Shown piece after piece: positions 9,316 through 62,881 of a DNA stretch of 64,000 bases. Source of the DNA: Bacteroidaceae bacterium (GTDB taxonomy: Bacteria; Bacteroidota; Bacteroidia; Bacteroidales; Bacteroidaceae); NCBI GenBank assembly GCA_017442855.1, contig JAFSPM010000028.1:47605-111604 (forward strand), given 5' to 3'. Numbering within the stretch: the stretch's first letter is position 1; every line of letters begins with the position of its first letter. The notes beneath the pieces were generated by a model. That model worked only from the letters and a program-made list of their open reading frames with translations. It made no database searches and had not been told where the DNA came from. Both the position numbers and the translations under genes were made by a program.

Positions 9316-10559
9316 TGAACCTGCCTGTTTTCCTTGCCCAACGTATCTATAAAGGTCCTGCTCTTTCCAAGCAGGTCTCTCGTCCGGCTGTCATCATATC
9401 AATGATTGGCATCGCCATTGGTTTGGCGGTGATGATTATAGCTGTGTCGGTGATTACCGGCTTTAAAAGTGAGATACGCGACAAGGTAACGGGCTTCGCT
9501 TCCCATTTGCAAGTTACTGATGCCAATGCGGTATTGGGCAACGAGACCACTCCTATAGTTTATAACGACAGCCTGAAGGCCCTACTGACTGCCCACCCAC
9601 AGGTAACGCATGTGCAACGCTATTCAGAAAAGGCGGGGATGATAAAGACCGCCGACTCCTTTCAAGGGGTGGTGGTGAAAGGTATAGGGCCTGACTACCA
9701 GACCGACTTCCTGCAGCAGCATATCCAGCAAGGTGCGTTTCCTCAGTTTAGTGACACGGTGGCTTCCAATAGTGTGGTCATCTCGCAGACGTTGGCCGAC
9801 AAGTTGCAGCTGCAGGTGGGAGATAAGGTGGATACTTATTTCTTTGACGAGAACATCAGGGCGCGGAAGTTGCTGGTAGCTGGTATCTACGAGACACACT
9901 TTTCCGCTTATGACGGGACTTATGTGTTTACTGACCTAAATCTGGTGAACCGTCTGAACCGTTGGGACAATGATGAGGCTTCGGGGGTGGAGATTACCAT
10001 CAATGATTATGCCAAGTTGGAGAATGCCACCTTTGAGGTGGGGACTTCGCTCAATGGTTTTACCGATAGAAACGGCACTGTTTATTGCGCTTTGAATGTG
10101 GAACAGCAAAACCCTGCCGTGTTCTCTTGGTTGGAGGTGTTGGATGTGAATATCTGGGTAATCTTGGTGCTGATGATAGGCATCGCAGGCTTTACGATGA
10201 TTGCCGGTTTGCTGATCATTATCATCGAACGTACGCAGATGATCGGTGTACTGAAATCGTTGGGCGCCAATAATACCACCGTAAGGCACTTGTTCTTGTG
10301 GCTCTCGGTATTCCTGATTGGTCGGGGCATGTTGTGGGGCAATGTCATAGGTCTTACTTTCTATTTCATACAGAAATACACGGGCGTCTTTACGCTCGAT
10401 CCAAGTACTTATTATATGGACAAGGTGCCAGTATCGCTGAGCTTCCCTGTATGGTTGCTCTTGAACATTGGCACCTTGCTCATCTCCGTCTTGATGCTGG
10501 TAGGTCCTTCTTATATCGTGGCGCGTATCCTTCCTGCCACTTCTATGAGGTATGAATAA
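9315..10559 (+). CDS. FtsX-like ABC transporter permease (LolC/LolE-like)
   Basis: A 414-residue inner-membrane protein with one N-terminal span (about 25-50), a large periplasmic domain (50-270) and three C-terminal spans, the layout of LolC/LolE. The family motif SLGANNTTVRHLFLW is present. In the Lol system it would release lipoproteins from the inner membrane to LolA. No LolD ATPase is adjacent. It is translationally coupled to the aminotransferase gene by a one-base overlap. Confidence 0.88.
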   Translation: MNLPVFLAQRIYKGPALSKQVSRPAVIISMIGIAIGLAVMIIAVSVITGFKSEIRDKVTGFASHLQVTDANAVLGNETTPIVYNDSLKALLTAHPQVTHVQRYSEKAGMIKTADSFQGVVVKGIGPDYQTDFLQQHIQQGAFPQFSDTVASNSVVISQTLADKLQLQVGDKVDTYFFDENIRARKLLVAGIYETHFSAYDGTYVFTDLNLVNRLNRWDNDEASGVEITINDYAKLENATFEVGTSLNGFTDRNGTVYCALNVEQQNPAVFSWLEVLDVNIWVILVLMIGIAGFTMIAGLLIIIIERTQMIGVLKSLGANNTTVRHLFLWLSVFLIGRGMLWGNVIGLTFYFIQKYTGVFTLDPSTYYMDKVPVSLSFPVWLLLNIGTLLISVLMLVGPSYIVARILPATSMRYE

Positions 10560-49754: not shown

Positions 49755-49768
49755 TCTGCAGGGCGACT

Positions 49769-49861
49769 TTCAAAATTTGCAATAATTGTTTCAAAATCTT
49801 CAAAACCTGAATGCATCTGGCATTCAGGTCTGTGTTATTTGGGGTAATTTACTTATTTTAG
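49769..49861 (+). promoter_or_regulatory. Direct-repeat promoter A, before the PAP2-barrel gene
   Basis: TTCAAAATTTGCAA (49769-49782) and TTCAAAATCTTCAA (49790-49803) start 21 bases apart. The -7-like TATTTTAG (49854-49861) begins 50 bases after repeat 2. A hairpin CCTGAATGC / GCATTCAGG (49806-49828) lies between. There is no -33 TTG, as expected for an activator-dependent promoter. Confidence 0.75.
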
Positions 49862-49911
49862 CGCTGAAAACCTGAATAACTTTTACAATATTTAATCTTA
49901 ATAATAATGTT

Positions 49912-51771
49912 ATGAAAATCCGACTTTTTCTCACATTAATGACTGTTGCCCTGACCATTCAGGCCAATGCGGTAAACTATCGAGATATGGATTCATTTCT
50001 GCTCGATGAACCTGAATCGAAAACAGAAACAATCAGTTTGGCCAAGCCGTCCTCCCTTAGTTTAGCCAAGGTGGCCCCTACGGCCAGTCCGAAGATGGAC
50101 TTTTCTCTTTTCAAGTTGAAGACAAATCCTGGTGTTAAACCCTATAAGTTCATGAACGACATGACCTTCGTGGGTGTACCCCTCTTCTTGGGCGGCTGGG
50201 CTATTAAAGGCGACAAGGCGATGTTCCGCGTCAATGCGAAAGCAGAGCAAGGAGGTAAGAAAAATACGCAGCTCCTGACTGACTTCAAGACAGGCATCGA
50301 CGACTATACCCAATTCTTCGGCCCCGCAATGGTGATTGGTTTGAAGTTGGGTGGCTATCAAGGTCGCAGTAGCTGGCCTCGCATGTTGGCAAGTGCTGCC
50401 GCTTCGTATGGTGTCATGGCTATTTTCGTCAATGGCATTAAGTACACGGCCAAGGAGATGCGTCCCGACGGCTCTACCGCCAACTCATGGCCTTCAGGAC
50501 ATACAGCAACAGCATTCGTTGGTGCCACATTGCTCCACAAGGAGTATGGACTCACCCGTTCTCCCTGGTGGTCTGTGGCTGGTTATGGCGTAGCTACGGC
50601 AACAGGTGTGATGCGTGTACTCAACAACCGTCACTGGATCAGTGATGTCATGTCGGGTGCCGGCATCGGTATCTTGTCCGGTGAGTTGGGCTATGCCCTC
50701 ATGGATCTGCTGTTCAAAGAGAAGGGATTGCTTCGCAACGATTTGATACTCGAAAGTAAAAAACCAAGTTTCTTCAGCGTTTCCATGGGTGTAGGCCTTG
50801 GCGGTAAGAACCTTGAGTTTGAAAGTCAGGGACAGAAGGTGGGCATCAAATTCCGTGCTGCCACTGTGGTTGATGCCGAAGGAGCTTACTTCTTCAATAA
50901 GTACGTTGGTGTGGGTGGTCGCCTTAGGGTAAGGGCACAGTCTGCCAAGGATTTCGGCGACTTTGCCAATTATGTAGCCGTTGAGGATTATTATGCTTGG
51001 GAAGGTTTGCAGCCCCTCTATCAGTCGGCTTTCCCAGGTGACTATCTGCCTGGTACCACCGAGGCTGAAAGGTTCCAGAATGAGCTTACCTTCCTGAACA
51101 AAGTGGGCTATCAGACAGAGTCGGAGAGTGCGTGGAATGCCAACGCTCCTGTAACCAATAGCTACGGTATCGTGAAGAGCGACCATATCACCGAGTTTAC
51201 GGGCAGTTTAGGTCTTTATTTCAACCTGCCACTTGGTTCCCACTTCTCTTTGGGTACCAAGGCGCTTATCGGTCGCTCCATCACACAAGAGCTGGACATT
51301 GACGGCTACGCCGAAGGTAACATGAAAGATATCAGCTACACAATAGGAATCGACAACCGTCCTGGTCAGCAGCAGCCCAATGGCGACCCCACCTTGTTGC
51401 TTAACGACCTGCAATATCCCAATAATACGGGTAATAAATGGACCGACGAATGGGAATACCTTACCGTGGGTGCCAAGTCGTCCACCTCGTTTGGCACGGG
51501 CCTCTCGCTCACCTATCGTTACAAGTCCAATTTCTCTTGGCGTTTTTTCTGTGACTACGATTACACCCGCAAGACATTTACGGCAAAATATGATCCTTAC
51601 CACTTTGTGCAGAAGGGTATGACCACTGGTGCTGGCTTACTGACGGACACTGCGCTGATAACCTCGACGAGCGATTACGCCGACGGTCTGGGTGTTGATG
51701 CCAGGGAGTACAAGACCCGCAAGAGCATGAACTACCTGACGCTGGGACTTTCGTTCTTAGTGAATTTTTAG
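49912..51771 (+). CDS. PAP2 phosphatase fused to an outer-membrane beta-barrel
   Basis: 619 residues with a signal peptide (about 1-21, TIQANA). Residues about 80-270 are a PAP2 lipid-phosphatase domain with the full acid-phosphatase signature: K177-X6-R184-P, P194-S-G-H197 and R235-X5-H241-X3-D245. From about 285 to the terminal F619 the chain is alternating strands of a barrel (FSVSMGVGLGG ... SMNYLTLGLSFLVNF). Such proteins remove phosphate from lipid A or undecaprenyl pyrophosphate; a fused barrel would hold the activity at the outer membrane. First gene behind direct-repeat promoter A. Confidence 0.85.
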   Translation: MKIRLFLTLMTVALTIQANAVNYRDMDSFLLDEPESKTETISLAKPSSLSLAKVAPTASPKMDFSLFKLKTNPGVKPYKFMNDMTFVGVPLFLGGWAIKGDKAMFRVNAKAEQGGKKNTQLLTDFKTGIDDYTQFFGPAMVIGLKLGGYQGRSSWPRMLASAAASYGVMAIFVNGIKYTAKEMRPDGSTANSWPSGHTATAFVGATLLHKEYGLTRSPWWSVAGYGVATATGVMRVLNNRHWISDVMSGAGIGILSGELGYALMDLLFKEKGLLRNDLILESKKPSFFSVSMGVGLGGKNLEFESQGQKVGIKFRAATVVDAEGAYFFNKYVGVGGRLRVRAQSAKDFGDFANYVAVEDYYAWEGLQPLYQSAFPGDYLPGTTEAERFQNELTFLNKVGYQTESESAWNANAPVTNSYGIVKSDHITEFTGSLGLYFNLPLGSHFSLGTKALIGRSITQELDIDGYAEGNMKDISYTIGIDNRPGQQQPNGDPTLLLNDLQYPNNTGNKWTDEWEYLTVGAKSSTSFGTGLSLTYRYKSNFSWRFFCDYDYTRKTFTAKYDPYHFVQKGMTTGAGLLTDTALITSTSDYADGLGVDAREYKTRKSMNYLTLGLSFLVNF

Positions 51772-51783
51772 AGCTGTTTCCTG

Positions 51784-51810
51784 ACCAAATATGATTGCAA
51801 TTAATAAATT
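51784..51810. repeat. Intergenic repeat, copy 1 (second copy at 58554)
   Basis: ACCAAATATGATTGCAATTA then ATAAATT here, against ACCAGGTATTATTGCAATTA then GCAAGTT at 58555. The leader of the esterase gene (56852) has the looser ATATTGCTATTAATGATAG. Confidence 0.65.
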
Positions 51811-51830
51811 TAAAATAAGGAGAGAATATC

Positions 51831-53486
51831 ATGAAAGCAGATCAGATTATCAAAAATGCAAAAATCTTTACTTCTGACAAGAATAATCCACAAGCAACAG
51901 CTCTGGTGGTGAAGGACGGTAAGTTCATCTATGTGGGCAACGAGGCTGGCCTATCCAATTATGAGGGTGAGGTCACTGACATGGGCGGCAAATTCATTAT
52001 GCCAGGTATCATCGACAGCCATGTGCATGTAACCATTCCTGTTGCATTTGAGTACGCTGACCTGGGCGTCCGTTTTGAACCCAATGGAAAGGAGGGAGCC
52101 ATAGACTTCATGGCGGCTTACATCAAGGAGCATCCCGGCCAGAAGTGCTATAGGTTTTTGTTGGAGCGCAGGTTTTTGAATGGAGAGGAAATCACCAAGG
52201 AGGATTTGGATGCCGTCTGCCCTGACAGCGAGCTCATTCTTCTGGAGGGCGAATGTCACAGCAACTGGGTGAATTCCAAAGTCCTGAAAAGGATGGGAAT
52301 CGCTGATGATACGCCAGACCCCGTTCCGGGATTGGCCTACTACGTTCGAAAGGATGGCCACGTGACCGGCAACTCATTCGAAACCGCCAGCTGGCCCATT
52401 CTCTTCGACGGTGTAAACGACCTTACGGACGAGCAGATTGTCACGTCTATTTCGCGTTGGATAGAATTTTCTAAGAATGCCGGCGTAAGTGCTGTTTTCG
52501 ATGCTGGTTTCCCGGAACACAACCCCATCCATGAACGGATGTATGAAATCCTGTGCAAACTGGATAAGGAAGGCAAACTGCCCATCTACATTGACGGATG
52601 TTATGTACTCACCCGACCCAGCAAGATGCATGAGGCCATAGAGGAGGTGAAGCGTTTCAGTCGCAAGTTCAACTCGGAACACCTGAAGGTACACACGCTG
52701 AAGATTTTCATGGACGGCACTCTGAAGATCGAGACCGCAGCACAGGTTACGCCTTACGTTGACACCGGTGTAACGGGTACCACAGCCTTCAAGCCCGATC
52801 AGGTGGCCGAGATACTCAAGGTCCTCAACGAGGCGGGATTGGATCTCCACGTGCACACCGTGGGTGCTGCCGCTTCCCGCGTGGTGCTGGACGGTGTGGA
52901 GCTGGCCCAAAAGGAACTGGGAGACAAATATCAGATGAAGGTTACCTGTGCCCACCTGGAGGTGCAGGCCGATGAGGACCTTCCTCGTTTTGCCAAACTG
53001 GGTGTATTTGCGAATTATACCCCATGGTGGCATTGTGGAGGCGGTCCGGGTGTATTGACCCCTATGCTTGGAGAGAAGCGTGCTACGACCATGTACCGCT
53101 GCAAGACGGTCTGGGACTCTGGCGCTACGGTGGCTTGGTCCAGCGACAATGTGGCATACGGCGATTTCATGACCTGGAGTCCTTACCTGGGTATGGAGAT
53201 TGGCATGGTGCGCCGCATATCGGAAAAGGCATGCGTTCCCGAATACTTTATTTGCCCTGTTCCCAATCCTCCGGCAGAAGAGAGAATGAACACGGAAGAA
53301 ATGATCATCGGTTATACCATCAACGGCGCCAAGCAGCTGGGCATCGAGGCTACTAAGGGCTCTATCGAGGCCGGCAAGGACGCCGACTTCCTGGTGTTCG
53401 ACAATGATCTGCTTGCAGCAGAACACGATGGCTTCAGCCACAACAAACCGGCAGAGGTGTATTTCGGCGGTAAGAAAATGAATTAA
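51831..53486 (+). CDS. YtcJ-like amidohydrolase, copy 1
   Basis: 551 residues of the amidohydrolase-3 group. GIIDSHVHV holds the first two metal histidines; LDLHVHTVGAAAS and a closing AWSSDN aspartate are further metal-site motifs. YtcJ-type enzymes split N-acyl or N-formyl amides; the substrate is unknown and there is no signal peptide. AAGGAG lies eight bases before the ATG, an SD site that is unusual here. It follows the PAP2-barrel gene by 59 bases and precedes the MATE gene by nine, so one operon is likely. Paralogue of the protein at 60199. Confidence 0.88.
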   Translation: MKADQIIKNAKIFTSDKNNPQATALVVKDGKFIYVGNEAGLSNYEGEVTDMGGKFIMPGIIDSHVHVTIPVAFEYADLGVRFEPNGKEGAIDFMAAYIKEHPGQKCYRFLLERRFLNGEEITKEDLDAVCPDSELILLEGECHSNWVNSKVLKRMGIADDTPDPVPGLAYYVRKDGHVTGNSFETASWPILFDGVNDLTDEQIVTSISRWIEFSKNAGVSAVFDAGFPEHNPIHERMYEILCKLDKEGKLPIYIDGCYVLTRPSKMHEAIEEVKRFSRKFNSEHLKVHTLKIFMDGTLKIETAAQVTPYVDTGVTGTTAFKPDQVAEILKVLNEAGLDLHVHTVGAAASRVVLDGVELAQKELGDKYQMKVTCAHLEVQADEDLPRFAKLGVFANYTPWWHCGGGPGVLTPMLGEKRATTMYRCKTVWDSGATVAWSSDNVAYGDFMTWSPYLGMEIGMVRRISEKACVPEYFICPVPNPPAEERMNTEEMIIGYTINGAKQLGIEATKGSIEAGKDADFLVFDNDLLAAEHDGFSHNKPAEVYFGGKKMN

Positions 53487-53495
53487 TTGTGGTAA

Positions 53496-54830
53496 ATGAA
53501 GTCACGAATCCATTTATCAGAGCATTTTACCTACAGTAAGCTGCTGCGGTTTACGTTACCACCCATTGTGATGAACATATTCGCTTCCCTGTACATCATT
53601 GCGGACGGTTTTTTTGTCGCTAATTTTGTGGGCAAGACGGAATTTGCAGCGGTCAACCTGATTATGCCAGTACTAAATATCCTCGGAACCATAGGCTATA
53701 TGTTCGGTGTCGGAGGTAGCGCACTGATTGCCAAAACGATGGGGGAAAAGAATCAGGATAAAGCGAATCGGCTGTTTTCCTTGATTGTACTGGTATCCTC
53801 TTGTTTGGGTGCTTTGATGATGGTGGCGGGCTTTATCTTTATGCCCCAGGTCACAACCATGCTGGGTGCCGAAGGACAACTCCTTGAAGACAGTGTTTTG
53901 TACGGAAGGATTTTTATTCTGGCCCTACCCGCATGGATATGGGTGTATGAGTTCCAGCTTTTCTTTATCACTGCTGAAAAGCCAAGGTTAGGGTTGGCTG
54001 TCACTGTACTTGCAGGACTTAGCAACATTGCATTCGATGCTATTTTTATCATCGGCTTTCAATGGGGTCTTGCAGGTGCGGCAGCAGCTTCAGCATTGAG
54101 TCAGATTGTGGGTGGCTTGTTTCCTCTCATTTATTTTCTTCGAAAGAATGACAGTCTTTTGGAGTTGGTAAAGCCTGTATGGAATGGCTGGGCGATTGTC
54201 AAATCCATGACAAACGGATCCTCAGAATTTATGGAGGAAGCAGCCTTTTCTTTAGTAGCGATTGTCTATAATATACAGCTGCTTAAATATGCGGGGGAAG
54301 ATGGCGTTGTCATTTATGGCCTGCTAATGTATGTCAGCCTGATTTTTAACGCTATATTTGTAGGATATTCCAATGGAATTGGACCGGTATTCAGCTATCA
54401 TTATGGTGCACAGAATCACAGAGAACTCAAAAGCCTGCGAATAAGGAGTCTGAGGCTCATCGGACTTGCATCCATTGCGATGTTTGTCCTTTCGGAAGTA
54501 CTTGCCCACCCATTTTCCGCCTTGTTTATGCAAGGAGCTGAGAGTCTGTTGCCAGACGCTATACACGCGTTTCGTATTTTCTCTGCCGCATACTTGTTCA
54601 CAGGGATGGCTATTTTCTGCTCAGCCTTCTTTACTGCTCTGAATGACGGGCAGGTATCGGCACTGATATCCAGTTTGCGAACGTTTGTGTTTGATCTTGG
54701 AGCTGTACTCCTGTTGCCATTGCTGCTTGGCGTTGACGGCATTTGGTGTGCTATTGTTTTCGCTGAACTGATGGCAGCTACCGTCGGGAACATATTTATG
54801 GTTGCGCTCCAAAGGAAGTATCATTATTGA
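53496..54830 (+). CDS. MATE-family efflux transporter
   Basis: 444 residues, 12 membrane spans in two similar halves (FTLPPIVMNIFASLYIIADGFFVANFVG at the start; EEAAFSLVAIVYNIQLLKYAGEDGVVIYG in the second half). It belongs to the DinF/NorM-like MATE group that exports drugs or metabolites with sodium or protons. Nine bases separate it from the amidohydrolase gene, so it may export the product of that enzyme or give resistance. Substrate unknown. Confidence 0.9.
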   Translation: MKSRIHLSEHFTYSKLLRFTLPPIVMNIFASLYIIADGFFVANFVGKTEFAAVNLIMPVLNILGTIGYMFGVGGSALIAKTMGEKNQDKANRLFSLIVLVSSCLGALMMVAGFIFMPQVTTMLGAEGQLLEDSVLYGRIFILALPAWIWVYEFQLFFITAEKPRLGLAVTVLAGLSNIAFDAIFIIGFQWGLAGAAAASALSQIVGGLFPLIYFLRKNDSLLELVKPVWNGWAIVKSMTNGSSEFMEEAAFSLVAIVYNIQLLKYAGEDGVVIYGLLMYVSLIFNAIFVGYSNGIGPVFSYHYGAQNHRELKSLRIRSLRLIGLASIAMFVLSEVLAHPFSALFMQGAESLLPDAIHAFRIFSAAYLFTGMAIFCSAFFTALNDGQVSALISSLRTFVFDLGAVLLLPLLLGVDGIWCAIVFAELMAATVGNIFMVALQRKYHY

Positions 54831-54843
54831 GAACAATTAGACT

Positions 54844-54935
54844 ATCAAAATCTGCAATAATTGTTTCAAAATTTGCAAAACTTGAATGTGTTAGGCATTA
54901 TGGCTTTTTTGTTTGATGAAACATGAGTAGATTTG
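54844..54935 (+). promoter_or_regulatory. Direct-repeat promoter B, before the small membrane-protein gene
   Basis: ATCAAAATCTGCAA (54844-54857) and TTCAAAATTTGCAA (54865-54878), 21-base period; TAGATTTG (54928-54935), an exact -7 consensus, begins 49 bases after repeat 2. The segment after repeat 2 (CTTGAATG ... GGCATT) resembles the hairpin at promoter A. Confidence 0.75.
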
Positions 54936-54961
54936 AAAACAAAATGAGTAAAATTAAAACT

Positions 54962-55519
54962 ATGGAAACAAGATTTAAGAAAGGTGCAAAGATTTTCGAC
55001 ATTGCCATTACTGCTGTAGCGGGAATGGTGTCAGTGGGCGTCATGCTTTATGGCATAGCCCATTTCGGATTGAGCGAGTCGTGGCCTGAACTGGTCCTAA
55101 ACTTGTTCTATATAGCATGTCTGGTAATGATCTGGATGTACTTCTTCAATTACCGCATCACTACACAGCAGTTTAACTATTGGTGTTCTGTCTGTGTGGG
55201 TATAACGGTGCTGTTGCGCGACATTCTCTTTGCACCGCCATTGGCCTTCTATGGGCTCCACTTGGCGTGTCTCACCCTGTCAGTGCTGCTGCTCCTGATG
55301 CTCACCTTCTTCTATGCCCGCAAGGACTGGCAGAGCTACACCAAAAGCAATCTATGGGCCATCTGTATCATCGATATGCTCATTGCCGCACTATATAACT
55401 ACGACATATTCATTGAGCCCATCAATGAGTACACCAACTATTTGCTCACGGAGATTTGGATTCGTCCTACCATCACGTATGGCTTGGTGGCCTGTTTTGT
55501 GACGGAAACGGAAAAATAA
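54962..55519 (+). CDS. Small integral membrane protein of unknown function
   Basis: 185 residues from ATG 54962. ATGs at 54923 and 54944 are in frame, but the first lies before, and the second just at, the expected transcription start of promoter B. Four or five hydrophobic segments (AITAVAGMVSVGVMLYGIAHF, LVLNLFYIACLVMIWMYFF, HLACLTLSVLLLLMLTFFY, NLWAICIIDMLIAALYNY). No family recognised. It is the first gene behind promoter B and precedes the PagL-like gene. Confidence 0.7.
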   Translation: METRFKKGAKIFDIAITAVAGMVSVGVMLYGIAHFGLSESWPELVLNLFYIACLVMIWMYFFNYRITTQQFNYWCSVCVGITVLLRDILFAPPLAFYGLHLACLTLSVLLLLMLTFFYARKDWQSYTKSNLWAICIIDMLIAALYNYDIFIEPINEYTNYLLTEIWIRPTITYGLVACFVTETEK

Positions 55520-55616
55520 CAAAAAGGGTAGTATAGTCACATCAGTAGCTTTTGTGAAGAAGCATATTTCGAGCTTAATAAAGTCAAATTAAGCGAAGCA
55601 AGATTTAGAGTAAGTC

Positions 55617-56831
55617 ATGTGCAATCAAGAGAAAAAGAAGGGGTTTAACTTTAACAAGCTGGCAGAGGTGTGTTTAGTGACCATTCTGCTGCTGTTAATA
55701 TTCTCCCCGCTGAAGGCGCAGGAGAAGAAAAATCGGTGGAATGTAACCGCTCTTATGGGCATGGGTTACATGGGGCATACTTCGGAACACTACGATAAGC
55801 TGGCACATTCCTTCTCGTACCCAACGGTCGATTTGCGCATCGGGCACTATGTGTATTCCGATGATCCTACGTCCTATGCCTCCCTGTACAATTTCCCAAA
55901 TATGGGAATAGGAGTGAACTGGAAAGGGTCCAGTCACTTAGACTGGGTGGGGAAATCCCACCTGAGCGACATTATCTCCGTATATGGTTTTTTTGAAAGG
56001 GATGTCATTCGTACGCGCAAGTTCTCCCTTGGCTATGAATTCTCCTTGGGAGTGGGATTCACCAGCGCCGTCTATGACAAGGAGGATAATCCCGATAATG
56101 ATCTTTTCAGTTCTGGTATGACGGCCTATCTTGCCCCCGGCCTGCGCATGGCCTACCGGCCCTCCAACCATCTGGAGCTGGGCTTGATGGCCCGTTTTAC
56201 GCACATGTCCACCGGTCGCCAAGCCTTTCCCAACAAGGGATTCAACGGACTGGAACTGTTGGCATCGGCACGATACACATTGGAAGAGCCCAAGGTTCCG
56301 GAGCACAAAGTTTCCCCCAGTTCATTTTTCAAAAAGCACATGCTATATGAGGTATATGTCGGTTACGGTGTGCACCGTTGTTCCCAGGAGTGGAAGGCTA
56401 CGGGTGAAACAACGCCATGGCCCACCTACACTTTTGGTGCCAGTGCTTGTTATCAGTACATTCCAACCCTTTCCTCGGGTTTGAGTTTGGACTTCTTCTA
56501 TTTCCCGGGTAAATTCCAGCAAAACGTGGCCATGAACGAGCTTATCCTTCATCCCGAACTGCATCCGGAGAACTATGATTACCACCCTTTGAGCATGGGT
56601 ATATCGGCTGTTCAGCAAGTACATTACGGCAACTTTACTTTCTGGGTTCAGTTGGGAGCCTATCTTTACAAACACTTGGGCGTTGCCGAGCAGGAAGGCT
56701 CTTTATACCAGCGTTTCGGCGGGAAAATCGTCTTTCCCAAGTTGGCCAACATGTATTTCGGTGTTGGCTGCAAAAGCCATAGATTTTCCAAGGCCGCCAG
56801 TCTTGACTTTATGCTGGGCGTAAGAATTTAA
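55617..56831 (+). CDS. PagL-like lipid A deacylase / acyloxyacyl hydrolase-like barrel
   Basis: 404 residues with an N-terminal signal (about 14-36, ending LKAQ). The N-terminal half is a beta-barrel with H196 and S198 in ARFTHMSTG, the HxS of PagL, which removes the 3-O acyl chain of lipid A in the outer membrane. The second half (from about 245) is another strand-rich section ending in FMLGVRI, so the chain is twice the length of PagL. No separate promoter is evident, so it may be read from promoter B. Confidence 0.78.
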   Translation: MCNQEKKKGFNFNKLAEVCLVTILLLLIFSPLKAQEKKNRWNVTALMGMGYMGHTSEHYDKLAHSFSYPTVDLRIGHYVYSDDPTSYASLYNFPNMGIGVNWKGSSHLDWVGKSHLSDIISVYGFFERDVIRTRKFSLGYEFSLGVGFTSAVYDKEDNPDNDLFSSGMTAYLAPGLRMAYRPSNHLELGLMARFTHMSTGRQAFPNKGFNGLELLASARYTLEEPKVPEHKVSPSSFFKKHMLYEVYVGYGVHRCSQEWKATGETTPWPTYTFGASACYQYIPTLSSGLSLDFFYFPGKFQQNVAMNELILHPELHPENYDYHPLSMGISAVQQVHYGNFTFWVQLGAYLYKHLGVAEQEGSLYQRFGGKIVFPKLANMYFGVGCKSHRFSKAASLDFMLGVRI

Positions 56832-56902
56832 TAGATAACAAAAGACACAAGAAATATTGCTATTAATGATAGAAAATAAAATAAAGAAAAGGAGACTTTA
56901 CC

Positions 56903-58501
56903 ATGAAAAATGAATTAAGAACCATGCATGGCGAGAACAAAAAGATTATAGACGGCAATTATGACCAGTCGCTGGCTGTCAAGTGCAACAACGGAACCTT
57001 TGTTGGCAAGAAGACTGACGAAATGATTATTTGGAAGGGCATTCCTTATGCAACGCAGCCGGTGGGGAAGTTTCGTTGGCAGAAGGCATTTCCTGCCGCA
57101 GACGATGATGGCGTGTATGACGCGACAAAGCCAGGTTCCGTTCCCATCGGACTCATAAACGACTCTGAGGGAACGGCAGAGTTCGGCGAGGACTGTCTGG
57201 TGCTGAACATCTATTGCAACACCAGCTGCACCGACAGCAAGAAGCCGGTTATGGTGTGGATTCACGGCGGCGGGTTCTGCGCCGAATCCCAGGCGTCTCC
57301 CCTCTACAACCTAACCAACATTGCTAAACAATGCCCCGACATCCTGTTCGTGTCCATCGACTACCGGCTTGGCTTCTTGGGATTCATGAACTTCGAGCGG
57401 GTTCCGGGTGGAGAGAACTTCAAGGAGGCAGGAAATCTTGGTCTGCTCGACCAGCTTGAGGCTCTCAGGTGGGTACAGAAAAACATCGCAGGGTTCGGCG
57501 GCAATCCCGACAACGTGACGATTTTCGGCGAGTCGGCAGGCTCGGCCAGTGTCACGTTCCTCCCGCTCATCGAAGGAAGCGAAGGACTCTTCAAAAGGTG
57601 CATCGCACAGAGCGCCAACATCGCTTACTGCGACACGATGGAACACGGTATCCACGTCACGCAGAACTTCCTGTCCGTAATGGGCTGCCAGACCATGGAC
57701 GAGCTGATGCAACTCACCACCGAGCAGCTTATAGACGCTTATCTGAAAGCAACTGTCATTGATGCGAACTGCCTTCTGGGAGCTGCCAACTTTCCGCTTC
57801 TCGACGGTGTCACGCTACCCGAGGACCGAGCTCTCATGTACGGGATATGGGGAGACGAAAAGAGGTCCAAAATCGATTTATTGATTGGGTCTAACCAGGA
57901 CGAAATCAGATACTTCCTACCACTCGAGGGCGGTGAAGAAGCCTTTACGAATACGCTGAGGTGGATCGCGAAGCGGGATCGCGCGCTGCTCAACAACCAG
58001 GAGAAGACCATGTATGACGAATTCATGGCCACGCTCGCCAACGAAAGCGAGTTGAGCAGGTTGGAGCAATACTGCAACGATATCAACTTCCGCGCCGGTA
58101 ACACCAATATGGCCATCAGGCACGCTGCTGCCGGCGGCAACACCTACATGTACTTCGTCAAGAAGCCGGTGACAACCCCCTATCTTGGCGTGATGCACGC
58201 GGCCGAGCTTCCGTACCTGTTCGATAATCCCATACCGGACCCAATGGGAAGCGGAGAAATCGTTAGCACCGAAGATTGCGAGTTCCGCCATGTCGTAAAG
58301 GAGATGTGGACTAACTTCGCTCGGACGGGCAACCCCTCCACCGATAAATACGAGTGGAAGAAGTTCTCGGGGGATGACCGCCAGACCATGGTTTTCGACG
58401 ATGCTATCGGTATGCAGAAGGATATTTTCGGAAGGCGTGAGGACCTGATGATGTCCTGGGCAGAGCGCCTTGGTAATGGGTCATCCAAGAGGGTCTGCTA
58501 A
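56903..58501 (+). CDS. Carboxylesterase, type B
   Basis: 532 residues of the alpha/beta-hydrolase carboxylesterase group. The nucleophile is S211 in FGESAGSASV; the oxyanion motif is WIHGGGFC; the acid is in GSNQDEIRYF and the histidine in GVMHAAELPY. There is no signal peptide. AAAGGAG stands eight bases before ATG 56903, as at the amidohydrolase gene 51831, and the two leaders are similar. GC content is somewhat higher than in the genes to the left. It could cleave an ester such as an acylated amino-acid compound; inference only. Confidence 0.9.
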   Translation: MKNELRTMHGENKKIIDGNYDQSLAVKCNNGTFVGKKTDEMIIWKGIPYATQPVGKFRWQKAFPAADDDGVYDATKPGSVPIGLINDSEGTAEFGEDCLVLNIYCNTSCTDSKKPVMVWIHGGGFCAESQASPLYNLTNIAKQCPDILFVSIDYRLGFLGFMNFERVPGGENFKEAGNLGLLDQLEALRWVQKNIAGFGGNPDNVTIFGESAGSASVTFLPLIEGSEGLFKRCIAQSANIAYCDTMEHGIHVTQNFLSVMGCQTMDELMQLTTEQLIDAYLKATVIDANCLLGAANFPLLDGVTLPEDRALMYGIWGDEKRSKIDLLIGSNQDEIRYFLPLEGGEEAFTNTLRWIAKRDRALLNNQEKTMYDEFMATLANESELSRLEQYCNDINFRAGNTNMAIRHAAAGGNTYMYFVKKPVTTPYLGVMHAAELPYLFDNPIPDPMGSGEIVSTEDCEFRHVVKEMWTNFARTGNPSTDKYEWKKFSGDDRQTMVFDDAIGMQKDIFGRREDLMMSWAERLGNGSSKRVC

Positions 58502-58765
58502 TGCGGGCGTGAAGCTTGCGCGGCATACTCGACTGGGAGCGCACCTATTTCATAACCAGGTATTATTGCAATTAGCAAGTTCAAACTCAAACCCCTTTTA
58601 ACAGACAATCCCCGCCGGCGGGGATTGTCTGTTTAGATACCTAAGGCTCCAACCTCTTGTTTATGCGATAAACTGTTATTATGCATTTTGATTTATTTAA
58701 TTTGAATTATGTAATTTGCATAATGTAAATCGTCTATATGCCGGAACAATTCCTGCCTCCACACT
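58502..58765. other. Non-coding stretch before promoter C
   Basis: About 400 bases separate the esterase stop and the second regulator gene. They hold the second copy of the intergenic repeat (58554-58585), a 34-base perfect palindrome, AT-rich sequence and promoter C. No gene or peptide with a leader-like sequence is seen. Confidence 0.7.
58600..58633. terminator. Perfect 17-bp palindromic terminator after the esterase gene
   Basis: AACAGACAATCCCCGCC joined directly to its reverse complement, with TTTTA before and TTTAG after. The arm ACAGACAATCCCCG recurs in the terminator at 61852. Confidence 0.75.
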
Positions 58766-58857
58766 TTCAAAATATGCAAAAGCAGTATCAAAATTTACAA
58801 AATTTGCCTTTGGGCGAGTTTTGGGCAATGCTGTTTAGAGATTTATCTCTATCTTTA
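58766..58857 (+). promoter_or_regulatory. Direct-repeat promoter C, before regulator copy 2
   Basis: TTCAAAATATGCAA (58766-58779) and ATCAAAATTTACAA (58787-58800), 21-base period; TATCTTTA (58850-58857) begins 49 bases after repeat 2. It suggests autoregulation of the AraC-type protein or control by its paralogue. Confidence 0.75.
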
Positions 58858-58909
58858 TACACCATATTAGCATCTTAATAAGAGTTTCAGAAATAATTCC
58901 ATTCAATTC

Positions 58910-60067
58910 ATGTACGAGCAAATTCGGGAAGATACTCTCTTTATCATATTATATACTTTTGTGACAGCTATGGCCTTGACGGCCAGTTGTTACCTGTTGT
59001 TCCGTCAGGGTAACGCCTTTGCCCGTGATGTTACGCCGCCTTTGCGCCTGCGTCGCTGGACTGCAGCCTACTTTGCCGCCGCTGCTTTGGGCCACTTGTG
59101 GTATATGCCGATATTCTTTCTCACCTCAAGTGAGGATATTATGATGATCGACCTTGTAGGCGGATTGCTTGACAGCATGACAATTTTTCCTTTGGCCATC
59201 ATCGTCATGCTCAACATGTTGCAAGACCGCCAGCGACCGCTATGGCCTATTGCTTTGATGATAGCACCGTTTGTTGTAGGAGGGATATTCAGCGTCGCCA
59301 CCCTTAGTTATGATTTTATTCCGATGTTATATGTCTATCTGCTGCTGTTGAGCGTAGGCATAGTTATATATATGGTTCGCGCGACGAGACAATACGGACG
59401 TTGGCTGCGTGACAATTATGCCGACTTGGAACACAAGGAGGTGTGGCAGAGTTTTGTAGTGTTGTCCTTCATACTACTTGTGATCTTTTTCTATGCATTT
59501 GTAAACGAAGGCCCGCTTTTCCAATACGCCATACAGGTGATTGGCATCGTACTTATCGGCTATCTCTTGTGGCGAGTGGAAACGTTGAGCGAACTGAGCA
59601 TCCATACTAATGATGAGGAAGTGGAAATTGTCACCACAGAGCATGTGGAAGACAATGACCTACCATTATCTATTCGCAACAATATTGGATTATTGCTACA
59701 GCGGCATTGCATTGACGAACTGCTCTACTTACAAAACGACCTGACCCTGCAACAGCTTGCAACAGCCGTTGGCACCAACCGTTCCTATCTCAGCCAGTAT
59801 TTCTCCTGTCTGGGCATGAACTACAATACCTATATCAATAATCTGCGCATTAACCACTTTATGAATCTCTATCGCAATGCTGTTGCTGCTCATAGCTCTT
59901 TCACCGCCCAGCAGTTGGCTTATGAGAGTGGCTACCACAATTACCGTACCTTTAGCAATGCTTTCAAACACAAGATGGGGCAGACAGTAACTTTCTGGAT
60001 GAAAGCTGCCGAGTATAAGCAGGATCGATCGGAAATCAAGACTCAAGAAGGGCAGGGAAAGACCTAA
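58910..60067 (+). CDS. Membrane-bound AraC-type regulator, copy 2
   Basis: 385 residues with the same plan as copy 1: six or seven membrane segments (RQGNAFARDVTPPLRLRRW, RQYGRWLRDNYADLEHKEVW conserved) and a C-terminal AraC domain (LTLQQLATAVGTNRSYLSQYFS ... YHNYRTFSNAFKHKMG). The DNA-reading helices are almost the same in both proteins, so both may read the same repeats. The gene has direct-repeat promoter C and a strong terminator. Confidence 0.9.
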   Translation: MYEQIREDTLFIILYTFVTAMALTASCYLLFRQGNAFARDVTPPLRLRRWTAAYFAAAALGHLWYMPIFFLTSSEDIMMIDLVGGLLDSMTIFPLAIIVMLNMLQDRQRPLWPIALMIAPFVVGGIFSVATLSYDFIPMLYVYLLLLSVGIVIYMVRATRQYGRWLRDNYADLEHKEVWQSFVVLSFILLVIFFYAFVNEGPLFQYAIQVIGIVLIGYLLWRVETLSELSIHTNDEEVEIVTTEHVEDNDLPLSIRNNIGLLLQRHCIDELLYLQNDLTLQQLATAVGTNRSYLSQYFSCLGMNYNTYINNLRINHFMNLYRNAVAAHSSFTAQQLAYESGYHNYRTFSNAFKHKMGQTVTFWMKAAEYKQDRSEIKTQEGQGKT

Positions 60068-60103
60068 AGTGGAATAATCAGCAAAAAAAATAGTAAAATT
60101 TAC

Positions 60104-60142
60104 AAGAATCACGGCTTAGGATATAGACCGTGATTCTTTTTT
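60104..60142 (+). terminator. Terminator of regulator copy 2
   Basis: 11-bp stem AAGAATCACGG / CCGTGATTCTT, 13-base loop, then TTTT. A lone half-site-like TAAAATTTACAA lies just before it (about 60094). Confidence 0.88.
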
Positions 60143-60154
60143 AGGGGATAATGC

Positions 60155-60162
60155 TAACTTTG
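60155..60162 (+). promoter_or_regulatory. -7 element of amidohydrolase copy 2
   Basis: TAACTTTG, exact TAnnTTTG, 36 bases before the ATG. No direct repeats precede it, so this gene is probably outside the repeat regulon. Confidence 0.5.
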
Positions 60163-60198
60163 AAGGCGTAAAATGTCTAATACTAAAATTATGTAACA

Positions 60199-61836
60199 AT
60201 GAGAGAATCGATTATTCTCGGCAACATCATCACGATGGATGAAAAGCGACCCTTTGCCAAGGCCGCATTAGTGAAGAACGGTGTTTTTGCCTATATCGGT
60301 AGTGCTGAAGAGGCGAAGAAGCTCGCAGGCACGGATGCGCAAGTACTGGATTATGGTGACAACTACATCTATCCTGGATTCCTTGAGTCACATTGCCACG
60401 GCTATTTTGCCGGCGATCGTGCCATCGGACAGGCGAACCTGGGGCAGGTGGGCTTGACCGATTACGCCAAATACCGCGAAATCATCAAAGAGTTCATTGC
60501 GATGAACCCACAAAAAACGCTCTACCTGGCTGCAGGGTGGGTAGAAAGCGATGAATATGTATCAAAGGCATATCTGGACGATATCTGCTCGGAGAAGCCA
60601 CTCATCATGCAGACTGGCGGCGGACACTCTATGCTGCTCAACACCAAGGCACTGGAGTGGGCAGGTATCGATGCGGCATACGCCAAGAGAATGGGTTACG
60701 ACATGGTGCACGTAGATGTCCAGGGAGATCCCGATGGATACATCTGTGAGAATCCAGTGATGGAACTCATCACCAAGCTTCCTACCACCTTCGAGGATGC
60801 CAAGAACTACCTGCTCGCATGGCAGGATCTCGCTCTTCAGAGCGGCTTTACCGGTGTAGCTGATGCCGGTGTCGAGATCTTCTACAAGGATTGTGTCAGG
60901 GCTTACCATGAATTGGAAAAGGAAGGCAAACTCAAGCTTCGCACCTACGCCTATCTGTTGTCGCCCGACAATGTGGCTGACCCGAAGGCTGAGGTGGCCC
61001 GTGTGGCTGCTGACCGTGCCAAGTACAGCGGCGAATACTTCAACGTGGTCGGCATCAAGGCCTTCCTCGATGGCGTAACCGAGGCACACACTGGCTGGCA
61101 GAATCAGGATTATGCCGACCAGCCCGGCTATCACGGTGTGGAGCGTTTCAACGACCACGACAAGATGGTGCAGCTGATTGTTGAGGCCGACAAGGAGGGT
61201 ATGGCTGTTCATGTTCACTCAGAGGGTGGTGGTGCCACGCATTTCATGCTGGGCTGTATTGAGGATGCCGAGAAGATTACGGGCGACCTGGATCAGCGTA
61301 ACGTGCTGGCGCATCTGCACTTCGTCACCGATGAAGATGTGCGCCGTATGGGAGCAACCGGTTCCGTGCCGGCTGTGGCTCCGCTATGGACTGCGAAGAT
61401 TCCTGGAGGTCCTTACGAGCAGGAAGTTTCCTACGTTGGTAAGGAACTGACAGATCAGGCCTATCCTATCAAGTCGTTCTATGATGCAGGTGCCAACGTG
61501 GTCTTCCATTCCGACTATCCCGTTTCCCCGATGATGAATGTCCAGTTCAGCATTTACATGGCAGAAAAGCGCACGACTCCAGAGTACATGTTGGGTGGTA
61601 TATGCCAACCGCGTAATATCAAGGAGGCCATCACCCGTGAGCAGTCGCTGCGCGCGATGACCATCAACGTGGCCCGTCAGTGGCACCAAGAGCATCGCAT
61701 GGGTTCTATCGAGTTTGGCAAAATAGCCAACATGACGGTATTCGACTGCGATTTCCTGCACGACGACATCGAGAAGGTCGCACAGGCCAATATCGTTGCA
61801 ACCATCGTGGATGGCGAGGAAGTTTTTAAGGCGTAA
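60199..61836 (+). CDS. YtcJ-like amidohydrolase, copy 2
   Basis: 545 residues, same family as the protein at 51831: metal motif GFLESHCHG, mid-chain MAVHVHSEGGGA and FHSDYPV near the C-terminus, with the closing GSIEFGKIANMTVFD. It has no signal peptide. Sequence identity to copy 1 is low outside motifs, so the duplication is old or the two came separately. It has its own promoter and terminator. Confidence 0.88.
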   Translation: MRESIILGNIITMDEKRPFAKAALVKNGVFAYIGSAEEAKKLAGTDAQVLDYGDNYIYPGFLESHCHGYFAGDRAIGQANLGQVGLTDYAKYREIIKEFIAMNPQKTLYLAAGWVESDEYVSKAYLDDICSEKPLIMQTGGGHSMLLNTKALEWAGIDAAYAKRMGYDMVHVDVQGDPDGYICENPVMELITKLPTTFEDAKNYLLAWQDLALQSGFTGVADAGVEIFYKDCVRAYHELEKEGKLKLRTYAYLLSPDNVADPKAEVARVAADRAKYSGEYFNVVGIKAFLDGVTEAHTGWQNQDYADQPGYHGVERFNDHDKMVQLIVEADKEGMAVHVHSEGGGATHFMLGCIEDAEKITGDLDQRNVLAHLHFVTDEDVRRMGATGSVPAVAPLWTAKIPGGPYEQEVSYVGKELTDQAYPIKSFYDAGANVVFHSDYPVSPMMNVQFSIYMAEKRTTPEYMLGGICQPRNIKEAITREQSLRAMTINVARQWHQEHRMGSIEFGKIANMTVFDCDFLHDDIEKVAQANIVATIVDGEEVFKA

Positions 61837-61851
61837 GATGTATCCCGATTA

Positions 61852-61888
61852 ACAGACAATCCCCGTCAGTGGCGGGGATTGTCTTTTT
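61852..61888 (+). terminator. Terminator of amidohydrolase copy 2
   Basis: 12-bp stem AGACAATCCCCG / CGGGGATTGTCT with a 7-base loop, then TTTT. Arms nearly equal those of the palindrome at 58600. Confidence 0.88.
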
Positions 61889-61922
61889 ACCTTGGTTAGA
61901 TTTTTGAAATGAGTAGGGGACT

Positions 61923-62014
61923 CTCAAAATCTTCAATAAAAGTCTCAAAATTTACAAAATATGAATTAGTCAGGTTTCATAGCTTTGTTGATAGGAGTTA
62001 TTTGCTTATCTTAG
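61923..62014 (+). promoter_or_regulatory. Direct-repeat promoter D, before the NHLM export genes
   Basis: CTCAAAATCTTCAA (61923-61936) and CTCAAAATTTACAA (61944-61957), 21-base period; TATCTTAG (62007-62014) begins 49 bases after repeat 2. Leader of about 24 bases to ATG 62039. Confidence 0.75.
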
Positions 62015-62038: not shown

Positions 62039-62881
62039 ATGACTATGGATACATTACAGTCTCCTGATCAGATTGGCGATCATCTGCGCGTGACATACGT
62101 CCCCACCTATCTGTTGGCTACGGCAGCAGCAGTACTATTGGTGGCATTCATTGTATGGGGCGTGTTCGGTACCGTGAGTGACAAAGTCTATTATTCGGGA
62201 GTAGTGTTCCCCGTACAAGGTACTACCGATATCTACTTGCCCCATAAGGGTATTGTGCGCTCCATCATGGTGCGCGATGGCGACATCGTGAAAAAGGGAC
62301 AGGCGGTGGCACTGGTATCAGTTGACGACAGCCATAGTTTCTTAACAAGTACGGTTAACGGTATGGTTGTCAGCTCAAAGATAGACAATGAGCCGTTTGA
62401 GGCCTACGACCCCATTATCAGTATCATGGAAGAAAACCCTACAGGCGAACAGACACAGCGTACCCTGCTTGTGGCCTACGCCGACAATGACGCGCAACGT
62501 GACTTGCGCATCGGCATGGAGGCACAGGTGTGGCCAGCCAACGAGAAGCGTGACGAGATAGGCTATGTGCGTGGGCGCATCATTCAGGTGGTGCGCTATC
62601 CTGCTGATGTCGATAAAGTGCGCCAGACCCTGAAATCCGATGTCTTGGCCAAGCGGTTGACGGAACAGAGCGATGCGGTGTATGAGGTGCTTATCGACCT
62701 GCAGCGGGATCCTGCCGACCCTGAGAGCTATGACTGGTCGTTCGGCGTGCCAGAGAATGTGAGCATGGACTTTGGCACCTACTGCTCGGTACTGACTGAG
62801 ACTCGCCGACTCAGCATGTTTCAGTATCTGTTTGAGACAACTCGCACACAAGTACGTAACCTAAAGCTGAAGTTTGAATGA
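62039..62881 (+). CDS. HlyD-family adaptor of an NHLM-type export system
   Basis: 280 residues: one membrane span (about 21-44), then a biotinyl-lipoyl-like domain (DIYLPHKGIVRSIMVRDGDIVKKGQAVALVS). It has no long coiled coil, which fits the short periplasmic adaptors of NHLM bacteriocin secretion rather than classical HlyD. It would join the ABC exporter encoded next, overlapping it by four bases (ATGA). Controlled by direct-repeat promoter D. Confidence 0.82.
   Translation: MTMDTLQSPDQIGDHLRVTYVPTYLLATAAAVLLVAFIVWGVFGTVSDKVYYSGVVFPVQGTTDIYLPHKGIVRSIMVRDGDIVKKGQAVALVSVDDSHSFLTSTVNGMVVSSKIDNEPFEAYDPIISIMEENPTGEQTQRTLLVAYADNDAQRDLRIGMEAQVWPANEKRDEIGYVRGRIIQVVRYPADVDKVRQTLKSDVLAKRLTEQSDAVYEVLIDLQRDPADPESYDWSFGVPENVSMDFGTYCSVLTETRRLSMFQYLFETTRTQVRNLKLKFE

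Follow-up and report, generated by a model that had tools for sequence, protein, structure and literature searches.

We analyzed a 64,000-nucleotide stretch of DNA (the window) from a Bacteroidaceae bacterium (NCBI GenBank assembly GCA_017442855.1, contig JAFSPM010000028.1, positions 47,605 to 111,604). The window encodes two AraC-type proteins with a predicted membrane domain (regulators 1 and 2), and it contains four copies of an operator that consists of two direct repeats. Very probably, membrane-bound AraC proteins of this family read the paired operator, which lies about 49 bp before the -7 element of a promoter, and the likely result is activation of nearby operons. A sequence-only reading of the window had proposed that the operator belongs to membrane-bound AraC-type proteins. 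The proposal is supported by the co-occurrence of operator and regulator across genomes, by their adjacency, and by covariation between regulator residues and operator bases.

Within 12.2 kb of the window, there are four pairs of the form CAAAATNTNCAA-N9-CAAAATNTNCAA, all on the + strand and all without mismatches (at 49771, 54846, 58768, and 61925). All eight half-sites keep CAAAAT-N-T-N-CAA, and the period is 21 bp. In 100 dinucleotide shuffles, we found no such pairs, even if three mismatches were allowed. The gaps between the final base of repeat 2 and the -7-like elements (TATTTTAG, TAGATTTG, TATCTTTA, and TATCTTAG, which share the shape TAnnTT) are 50, 49, 49, and 49 bases. Thus, the pairs, the period, and the gaps are just as the sequence-only reading described them. 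It had also claimed that none of the promoters has a TTG at -33. This is correct for promoters 1 to 3, which have no TTTG 23 bp before the TA of the -7 element, but not for promoter 4, where a -33-like TTTG begins at that position. (The Bacteroides promoter consensus given in PMC7366714 is TAnnTTTG at -7 and TTTG at about -33.) As had been suggested as a check, we scanned the rest of the organism's genome (2,759,631 bases in 49 contigs, 80% complete) and found no fifth exact pair. With up to three mismatches, there were only two further pairs, one with two mismatches (C37) and one with three (C39), and neither has TA..TTT within 70 bp.

The geometry recurs in related bacteria. A pattern scan of genome contigs identified at least 116 stretches, of which about 80 are titled Prevotella or other Bacteroidales, and many are from ruminants. 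The scan also brought in loci from other phyla, where the pair is probably due to chance; several of these lie inside open frames. Among the matches listed, 129 exact pairs (from the window, L026, and L039-L154) have at least 90 bp of downstream sequence. In 70 of these, TA..TTT starts 48, 49, or 50 bases after repeat 2 (8, 45, and 17 pairs, respectively), and no other offset occurs more than four times. We then considered 64 non-redundant promoter sites, which were selected for having a phased -7 element and for being less than 80% alike; they include the window's four, and two are from outside the Bacteroidota. Their consensus is GACTTTCAAAAT.TGCAAAAAttGTTTCAAAAT.TGCAAAAtcT, in which the columns inside the search pattern are fixed by construction and the flanks are free; the half-site consensus is TTTCAAAATNTGCAAAA. 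TTTG starts at -23, relative to the TA of the -7 element, in 7 of the 64 promoters and at -16 in 29. The TTTG at -16 is often within TTTGGAG, a conserved element that does not have the usual -33 spacing. Four loci (L041, L070, L077, and L103) have another 21-bp pair, which is 50-52 bp upstream of the one nearest the promoter, or about five helical turns away.

Operator and regulator occur in the same genomes. We searched 349 genomes, evenly sampled from the family, for the membrane domain (using alignment A1) and for the exact pair. The domain was found in 41 genomes and the pair in 10, and all 10 are among the 41 (hypergeometric p = 2e-10; without the window's own genome, 9 of 9 in 40 of 348, p = 1e-9). 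Across the order, the membrane domain is present in 3 of 198 genomes, including the window's own. An extended pattern with a period of 21 bp and up to three mismatches was present in 12 of 40 regulator-positive genomes versus 0 of 33 regulator-free genomes from the same genera; 8 of the 12 already had known exact pairs. The extended pattern was also present in all 7 genomes to which named loci belong; these had been picked for having it. For comparison, the reversed pattern was found in 0 of 80 genomes, and a period of 22 bp gave matches in 1 of 7 and 3 of 66 genomes; a few of the 22-bp pairs look real (for instance, in G254, G365, and G484). One genome of the same family (G375) has a site that is identical in sequence and position to that of Prevotella communis E15-14 (G479).

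The two are also neighbors. Among the matches listed, a homologue of the membrane AraC proteins is present in 42 of 68 loci with a phased -7 element versus 8 of 54 unphased loci; these loci were fetched by their DNA pattern and span at most 8 kb (apart from the window), receptor-only and truncated homologues were counted, 5 of the 8 are in both groups, and the unphased loci, many from other phyla, are an unmatched control. Conversely, the motif-fetched loci and the window together encode 37 full-length homologues; for 35 of these, a promoter-type site (up to two mismatches, with a phased -7 element) lies within 300 bp, and the median distance between regulator and site is 50.5 bp over 36 pairs.

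A test that is blind to the motif gave a similar result. We took 46 genes that were fetched as full-length matches (at least 330 residues) from protein searches, leaving out the two in the window's own genome, the one in G375, and those that were truncated or receptor-only. (Five of their loci had been fetched through motif matches, although the genes themselves are protein-search matches.) Within 380 bp of each gene, we searched for any direct repeat with a period of 20-22 bp that ends 47-51 bp before TA..TTT. Controls were 131 genes from the same loci, excluding those within 800 bp of a regulator. Of the thresholds of 11 to 15 that we evaluated, we quote 13: repeats with at least 13 of 17 matches were found for 24 of 46 regulator genes versus 2 of 131 controls (p = 7e-15). 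At thresholds of 12 and 15, the counts were 28 versus 4 and 13 versus 2. Several of these repeats are clearly unlike the CAAAAT half-sites but have the same geometry (TCTCAGCTAATGCAAAA, TATAAAATCAGCAAAAA, TTTGTAAAATATACAAA, and TTTTAGAATTGTAAAAA). The sequence-only reading had recommended scanning relatives with a matrix. A position weight matrix at a score of 20 separated poorly, with hits for 21 of 46 regulator genes and 13 of 120 controls. This is probably due to other operators of the same loci that lie within the flanks of the controls.

We considered whether the sites might be a duplicated promoter cassette that spread by recombination, with no regulator involved. The sites are clustered, with six in 40 kb in G481 as well as the four in 12.2 kb in the window, and some of the flanks are nearly identical. 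However, 64 sites remain after removing those that are 80% or more alike, and these are still 48-50 bp from the -7 element; also, repeats that differ in sequence have the same geometry beside different regulators. We rejected this explanation, which we consider extremely improbable.

The operator's sequence varies with the DNA-binding domain of the regulator. Of 83 regulators (46 found by protein search and 37 by motif), 59 passed a filter for the repeat, and 50 remained after removing near-identical DNA-binding domains. Across the 50 pairs, operator distance is correlated with the distance between DNA-binding domains (r = 0.41, reached in 0 of 2,000 permutations) and less so with the distance between membrane domains (r = 0.17). 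As partial correlations, these become 0.385 (p = 0.001) for the DNA-binding domain and -0.025 (p = 0.66) for the membrane domain.

The covariation can be traced to single residues. Residue 292 lies in the first helix-turn-helix (HTH). We counted residue 292 in 49 pairs, after dropping L257, which is within the 50 but whose repeat is not operator-like. If residue 292 is F, Y, L, V, or A, then base 11 of the half-site is G in 26 of 27 pairs, for both halves. If it is T, S, or N, then base 11 is not G in 19 of 22 pairs for half 2 (p = 1.5e-9) and in 18 of 22 for half 1. This rule is seen within each of the two clades of the membrane domain (p = 7e-5 and 2e-5), and among 15 phylogenetically independent pairs, 12 are concordant, none are opposite, and 3 are tied. 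The selection of loci by motif did not create the rule because base 11 is free in the search pattern; in the protein-found subset, the corresponding fractions are 6/6 and 13/14 for half 1 and 5/6 and 13/14 for half 2. Residue 350, in the second HTH, goes with CAAAAT. This association can be tested in the protein-found subset only, because CAAAAT is fixed by construction in the motif-fetched rows, and there it has p = 0.0044 for half 2 and p = 0.36 for half 1. Thus, as in AraC/XylS proteins, residues of the recognition helices of both HTHs track the operator sequence; the covariation is strong for the first HTH and weaker for the second.

Among the 77 variable columns of the DNA-binding domain, columns 292, 296, and 350 rank 2, 4, and 5 (the chance that all three are in the top five is 1.4e-4). 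Columns 284 and 258 rank 1 and 3, and we know of no contact for either. Column 346, which matches a MarA contact, ranks only 20. A profile alignment places 292, 296, and 350 on Trp36, Arg40, and Arg90 of Rob (E = 0.0011, with a probability of only 20%), and these are key A-box and B-box residues of Rob according to PMC8279559.

These results bear on another explanation: the repeats might be read by a different AraC-type regulator, for instance a hybrid two-component system (HTCS), with the membrane AraC genes as mere neighbors. In Bacteroides, the motifs predicted for HTCS are direct repeats that are spaced 21 bp apart on average (PMC3878776). However, where a membrane AraC protein is adjacent, the operator tracks its DNA-binding domain at residues that are equivalent to contacts, and Pfam finds no histidine kinase or receiver in the window's regulators, but only HTH_18 and HTH_AraC. 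Also, all 10 of the motif-containing genomes among the 349 encode a membrane AraC protein. Given the lack of kinase and receiver and the covariation, we rejected HTCS as the regulator, although no search was made for HTCS genes close to the sites, and we consider a different reader to be very unlikely.

Several observations do not fit well with membrane AraC proteins as the readers of this operator. First, 59 of the 129 exact pairs lack a phased -7 element. Many of these are from other phyla or are the upstream members of arrays, and two are the window's own (their -7 elements, TA..TTA and TA..TTTTA, are uncounted or off by one), but some are from Prevotella (L097, L130, and L137). Second, in G329 and G342, the exact site and the regulators are on different contigs. 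Third, 22 of the 46 protein-found regulators have no clear phased repeat in their 380-bp flanks; some of their sites may be at contig ends or elsewhere. Of the 24 that do, one (L257) has a repeat that is unlike any operator, and there are near-duplicates (L200/L249, L232/L235, and L259/L261). Fourth, residue 292 and its two groups were picked after scanning all of the columns, and the association of residue 350 comes solely from half 2 of the protein-found subset. Fifth, both of the window's regulators are polar at 292, yet four of the eight half-sites have G at base 11 (for operators 1 to 4, base 11 is G,T / G,G / G,A / T,A). Neither regulator 1 nor its relative in L033 follows the rule. Finally, the membrane protein encoded just after promoter 2 (c1) is found in 28 of the 349 genomes, and 15 of these are among the 41 with the regulator (p = 1e-8), but 13 have no detected regulator.

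The regulators' DNA-binding domains are clear. HTH_18 matches both at 42.7 and 44.1 bits, as compared to a Pfam cutoff of 33.6, which places them in the AraC/XylS family. The first 230 residues have no Pfam match above the cutoff, and we found no solved structure that covers the membrane domain by sequence, but only structures of AraC-type domains. The hydropathy of alignment A2 shows seven hydrophobic segments, of which one is weak. By hydropathy, transmembrane segments and a DNA-binding domain are present in one polypeptide, as in transmembrane transcription regulators. The charges of the successive loops (-1.5, +3.8, -1.2, +1.9, -0.3, +0.8, and -1.0) alternate according to the positive-inside rule and fit with the N terminus being outside and the DNA-binding domain being inside, except that the linker after the last segment is negative (-2.8). 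Overall, these proteins look like seven-helix receptors that are fused to an AraC domain. There are also receptor-only paralogues of about 235 residues, which retain the membrane part without the DNA-binding arm. These are encoded first after an operator in L070, L076, and L103, and apparently also in L077 and L081.

In most cases, the operator does not precede the regulator's own gene. Among 49 pairs of operators and regulator genes, there are 37 in which the operator follows the gene on the same strand, ahead of the next operon. In another 10 the two are divergent, and in just 2 the operator is upstream of the gene on the same strand. Regulator 2 of the window is one of the two upstream cases, so this apparently auto-regulated copy is an exception. 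The regulon of membrane-bound AraC-type proteins that the sequence-only reading proposed is supported, and it extends beyond this genome, but the operator upstream of copy 2 is not the typical layout. In one locus (L198), the regulator gene lies between identical variant operators (with CAAAATCGTAAAA as the first half) on opposite strands, at 10042 and 12115.

We propose that two DNA-binding domains, presumably of a dimer, would sit side by side and read one direct half-site each; the half-sites are two helical turns apart and so face the same side of the DNA. The first HTH would read the promoter-proximal TGC/TAC part of the half-site, and the second would read CAAAAT. Most likely, the bound regulator recruits polymerase and thereby activates transcription, perhaps in response to an external or membrane signal. 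Activation seems likelier because the entire site is upstream, at a constant distance, and most of the promoters lack the usual -33 element. Alternatively, the regulator could bind the same operator as a repressor until a signal releases the promoters. The sign of control cannot be read from the sequence, and promoter 4 does have a -33-like TTTG. On the other hand, the pair ends 48-50 bp before the -7 element and does not overlap the polymerase site, and the scarcity of TTTG at -23 (7 of 64 promoters) is as expected if the promoters depend on an activator. We consider repression to be unlikely.

The regulators would control mainly the operons near their own genes, many of which encode envelope, surface, or export proteins. 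Within the window, regulator 2 probably controls promoters 3 and 4, whose second half-sites have TTTACAA, and regulator 1 probably controls promoters 1 and 2. It is a serious possibility, although not the one we favor, that both regulators share all four operators as a single regulon: all of the half-sites keep CAAAAT-N-T-N-CAA, and the two regulators are both polar at 292 and are 47% identical. However, the second half-sites of operators 1 and 2 have CTTCAA and TTTGCAA, respectively, instead of the TTTACAA of operators 3 and 4, and in L033, TTTGCAA likewise goes with a close relative of regulator 1.

The features of the window are listed in Table 1. We moved the start of c1 from 54923 to the METRF codon at 54962 because its homologues begin there and because the -7 element is at 54928. 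c1 is 76-86% identical to its homologues in eight relatives (alignment A3), as compared to 38-65% for the regulators, and it has no Pfam match above the cutoff. The end of the window is the end of the contig, so the exporter operon is cut.

Table 1. Operators, promoters, regulators, and putative target genes in the window
Feature	Position	Strand	Basis or remark
Regulator 1: seven hydrophobic segments and a C-terminal AraC domain, 375 aa	48627..49754	+	HTH_18 42.7 bits, HTH_AraC 36.5 bits
Operator 1 (TTTCAAAATTTGCAA / TTTCAAAATCTTCAAAA)	49768..49805	+	17 bp 3' of regulator 1
-7-like TATTTTAG, promoter 1	49854..49861	+	
PAP2-barrel protein	49912..51771	+	First gene after operator 1; Pfam PAP2 55.5 bits
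Amidohydrolase (Amidohydro_3)	51831..53486	+	Putative operon of operator 1; Pfam
MATE efflux protein	53496..54830	+	Putative operon of operator 1; Pfam
Operator 2	54843..54880	+	
-7-like TAGATTTG, promoter 2	54928..54935	+	
c1, polytopic membrane protein, about 185 residues	54962..55519	+	Alignment A3
Weakly PagL-like outer-membrane protein	55617..56831	+	Pfam PagL 24.7 bits (cutoff 23)
Type-B carboxylesterase	56903..58501	+	Pfam
Operator 3	58765..58802	+	5' of regulator 2
-7-like TATCTTTA, promoter 3	58850..58857	+	
Regulator 2: architecture as regulator 1, 385 aa	58910..60067	+	47% identical to regulator 1
Second amidohydrolase	60199..61836	+	Putative operon of operator 3
Operator 4	61922..61959	+	
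-7-like TATCTTAG, promoter 4	62007..62014	+	TTTG at -23, unlike promoters 1 to 3
NHLM-type HlyD-like adaptor	62039..62881	+	TIGR03794 126.1 bits, below cutoff of 156.2
NHLM-type ABC exporter, cut by contig end	62878..63999	+	TIGR03796 206 bits (cutoff 853), truncated protein

We grouped the first genes after the 64 promoter sites, including the window's, by BLAST; most of the names come from one scanned member or from likeness. The largest groups are c1 (8), secreted proteins (7, several of them very large or truncated), membrane AraC or receptor-only proteins (6), CPA2 antiporters (5), and amidohydrolases (5), and there are pairs of genes for PAP2-barrel, carboxylesterase-like, and MACPF-type lipoprotein genes. 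Therefore, the PAP2, c1, amidohydrolase, and carboxylesterase genes of the window have relatives behind the same operator elsewhere. In particular, a homologue of the PAP2-barrel protein is encoded first after an operator in L044, and amidohydrolase-like genes are first in five other loci. Close homologues of the second amidohydrolase are directly after operators in L060 and L073. In L050 and L108, the first genes have N termini that, by eye, are similar to that of the window's carboxylesterase. The predicted targets thus include many genes for the envelope, the surface, and export.

For 9 of the 13 regulator-free genomes, we also examined the 190 bp upstream of c1. Of the 10 loci covered, 9 had no operator and one (L214) had a variant. 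In three c1 loci from regulator-positive genomes, the operator is directly upstream only in L220; in L223 and L229, c1 is not directly behind one. This comparison is weak and carries no part of our case. In G235, a single-contig genome, a copy of c1 (L212 7026-7576) appears to be split by a change of frame at about residue 153.

Very similar lipoprotein signals, of the type W-M-x-A-A-I-L-V-C-G, are present on otherwise unrelated proteins of the predicted regulon (L191 1273-9906 and 19138-19998; L192 929-1408; L199 2-2404), as if a leader cassette had been swapped onto different enzymes. These include an amidohydrolase, a phosphoglycerate-mutase-like protein, and a carboxylesterase-like protein; the amidohydrolase homologues of the window lack such a signal. 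Operons after operators also encode secreted proteins that reach about 3,900 residues (L190 7129-18789, L204 5642-17425, L206 9070-19998, L208 10674-20000, and L209 3-3683), and those in L206, L208, and L209 are cut by the end of the locus or contig. For the one that we scanned (L204), Pfam finds almost nothing. Other operons after an operator encode several related lipoproteins (L193 7029-16522 and L198 478-9906). The one that we scanned (L193 7029-8513) has a MACPF domain, which brings to mind the antimicrobial MACPF proteins of Bacteroidales.

Parts of this system resemble known regulators. E. coli AraC binds two direct half-sites on one face of the helix at araI1-I2. AraC is a soluble sensor of arabinose and its sites reach -35, whereas the pair described here ends about 49 bp before the -7 element. 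MarA and Rob are soluble and bind single sites, unlike this system with its membrane domain and its paired direct half-sites. On the opposite strand, the half-site shows GCA at the bases that the first HTH would read, much as in the marbox. As in MarA/Rob, much of the covariation is at the positions that align to Trp36, Arg40, and Arg90 of Rob (PMC8279559). More generally, PMC9723621 states that a flexible link between the dimerization and DNA-binding domains permits AraC-type dimers to bind direct repeats.

By its operator geometry, the closest system seems to be HTCS, and by its protein class, the transmembrane transcription regulators. The HTCS of Bacteroides also have an AraC-type (HTH_18) domain in a membrane protein and a direct-repeat operator of about 21 bp in Bacteroidales, but they include a periplasmic sensor, a histidine kinase, and a receiver, and they control polysaccharide loci (PMC3878776 and PMC11253607). 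In contrast, the proteins described here have a seven-helix domain without kinase or receiver, a different half-site, and targets that are largely envelope, surface, or export genes. The 21-bp direct repeat is a shared geometry, not membership. AraC domains that sit side by side on direct repeats have been proposed for HTCS (PMC3878776). Transmembrane transcription regulators are one-component systems with membrane segments and a DNA-binding domain in one protein, and about 72% of those in Bacteroides are hybrids (PMC10269533). The main text of that article does not mention AraC, and we found no operator or regulon for the membrane AraC family there. Among the matches listed from one open-access library, no title or abstract describes the membrane AraC family, its operator, or its regulon.

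How a protein that is fixed in the membrane finds and activates its promoters is a question that is still posed (PMC10269533). One speculative answer, which we think improbable, is that a seven-helix receptor-like protein is wired straight to DNA, with no kinase, second messenger, or proteolytic step in between, and that co-regulated paralogues of the receptor-only type tune it. Where a peptide exporter is the target, as at promoter 4, the exported product might be the ligand, which would give a pheromone-like loop of self-sensing in Prevotella-like bacteria.

Overall, a family of membrane-embedded one-component regulators gains a likely operator, a promoter geometry, and a first rule that relates a residue to a base. 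Targets are predicted in dozens of Bacteroidales genomes, including those of Prevotella communis E15-14 and P. ruminicola KHT3, and both partners of this signaling from membrane to gene can now be tested directly. The approach (regulators found by protein search, phased repeats found without regard to their sequence, and a ranking of contact residues) could be reused for other AraC-type regulators that lack a known site. For Prevotella, the regulon offers a way into how very large surface proteins, lipoproteins, and exporters are controlled.

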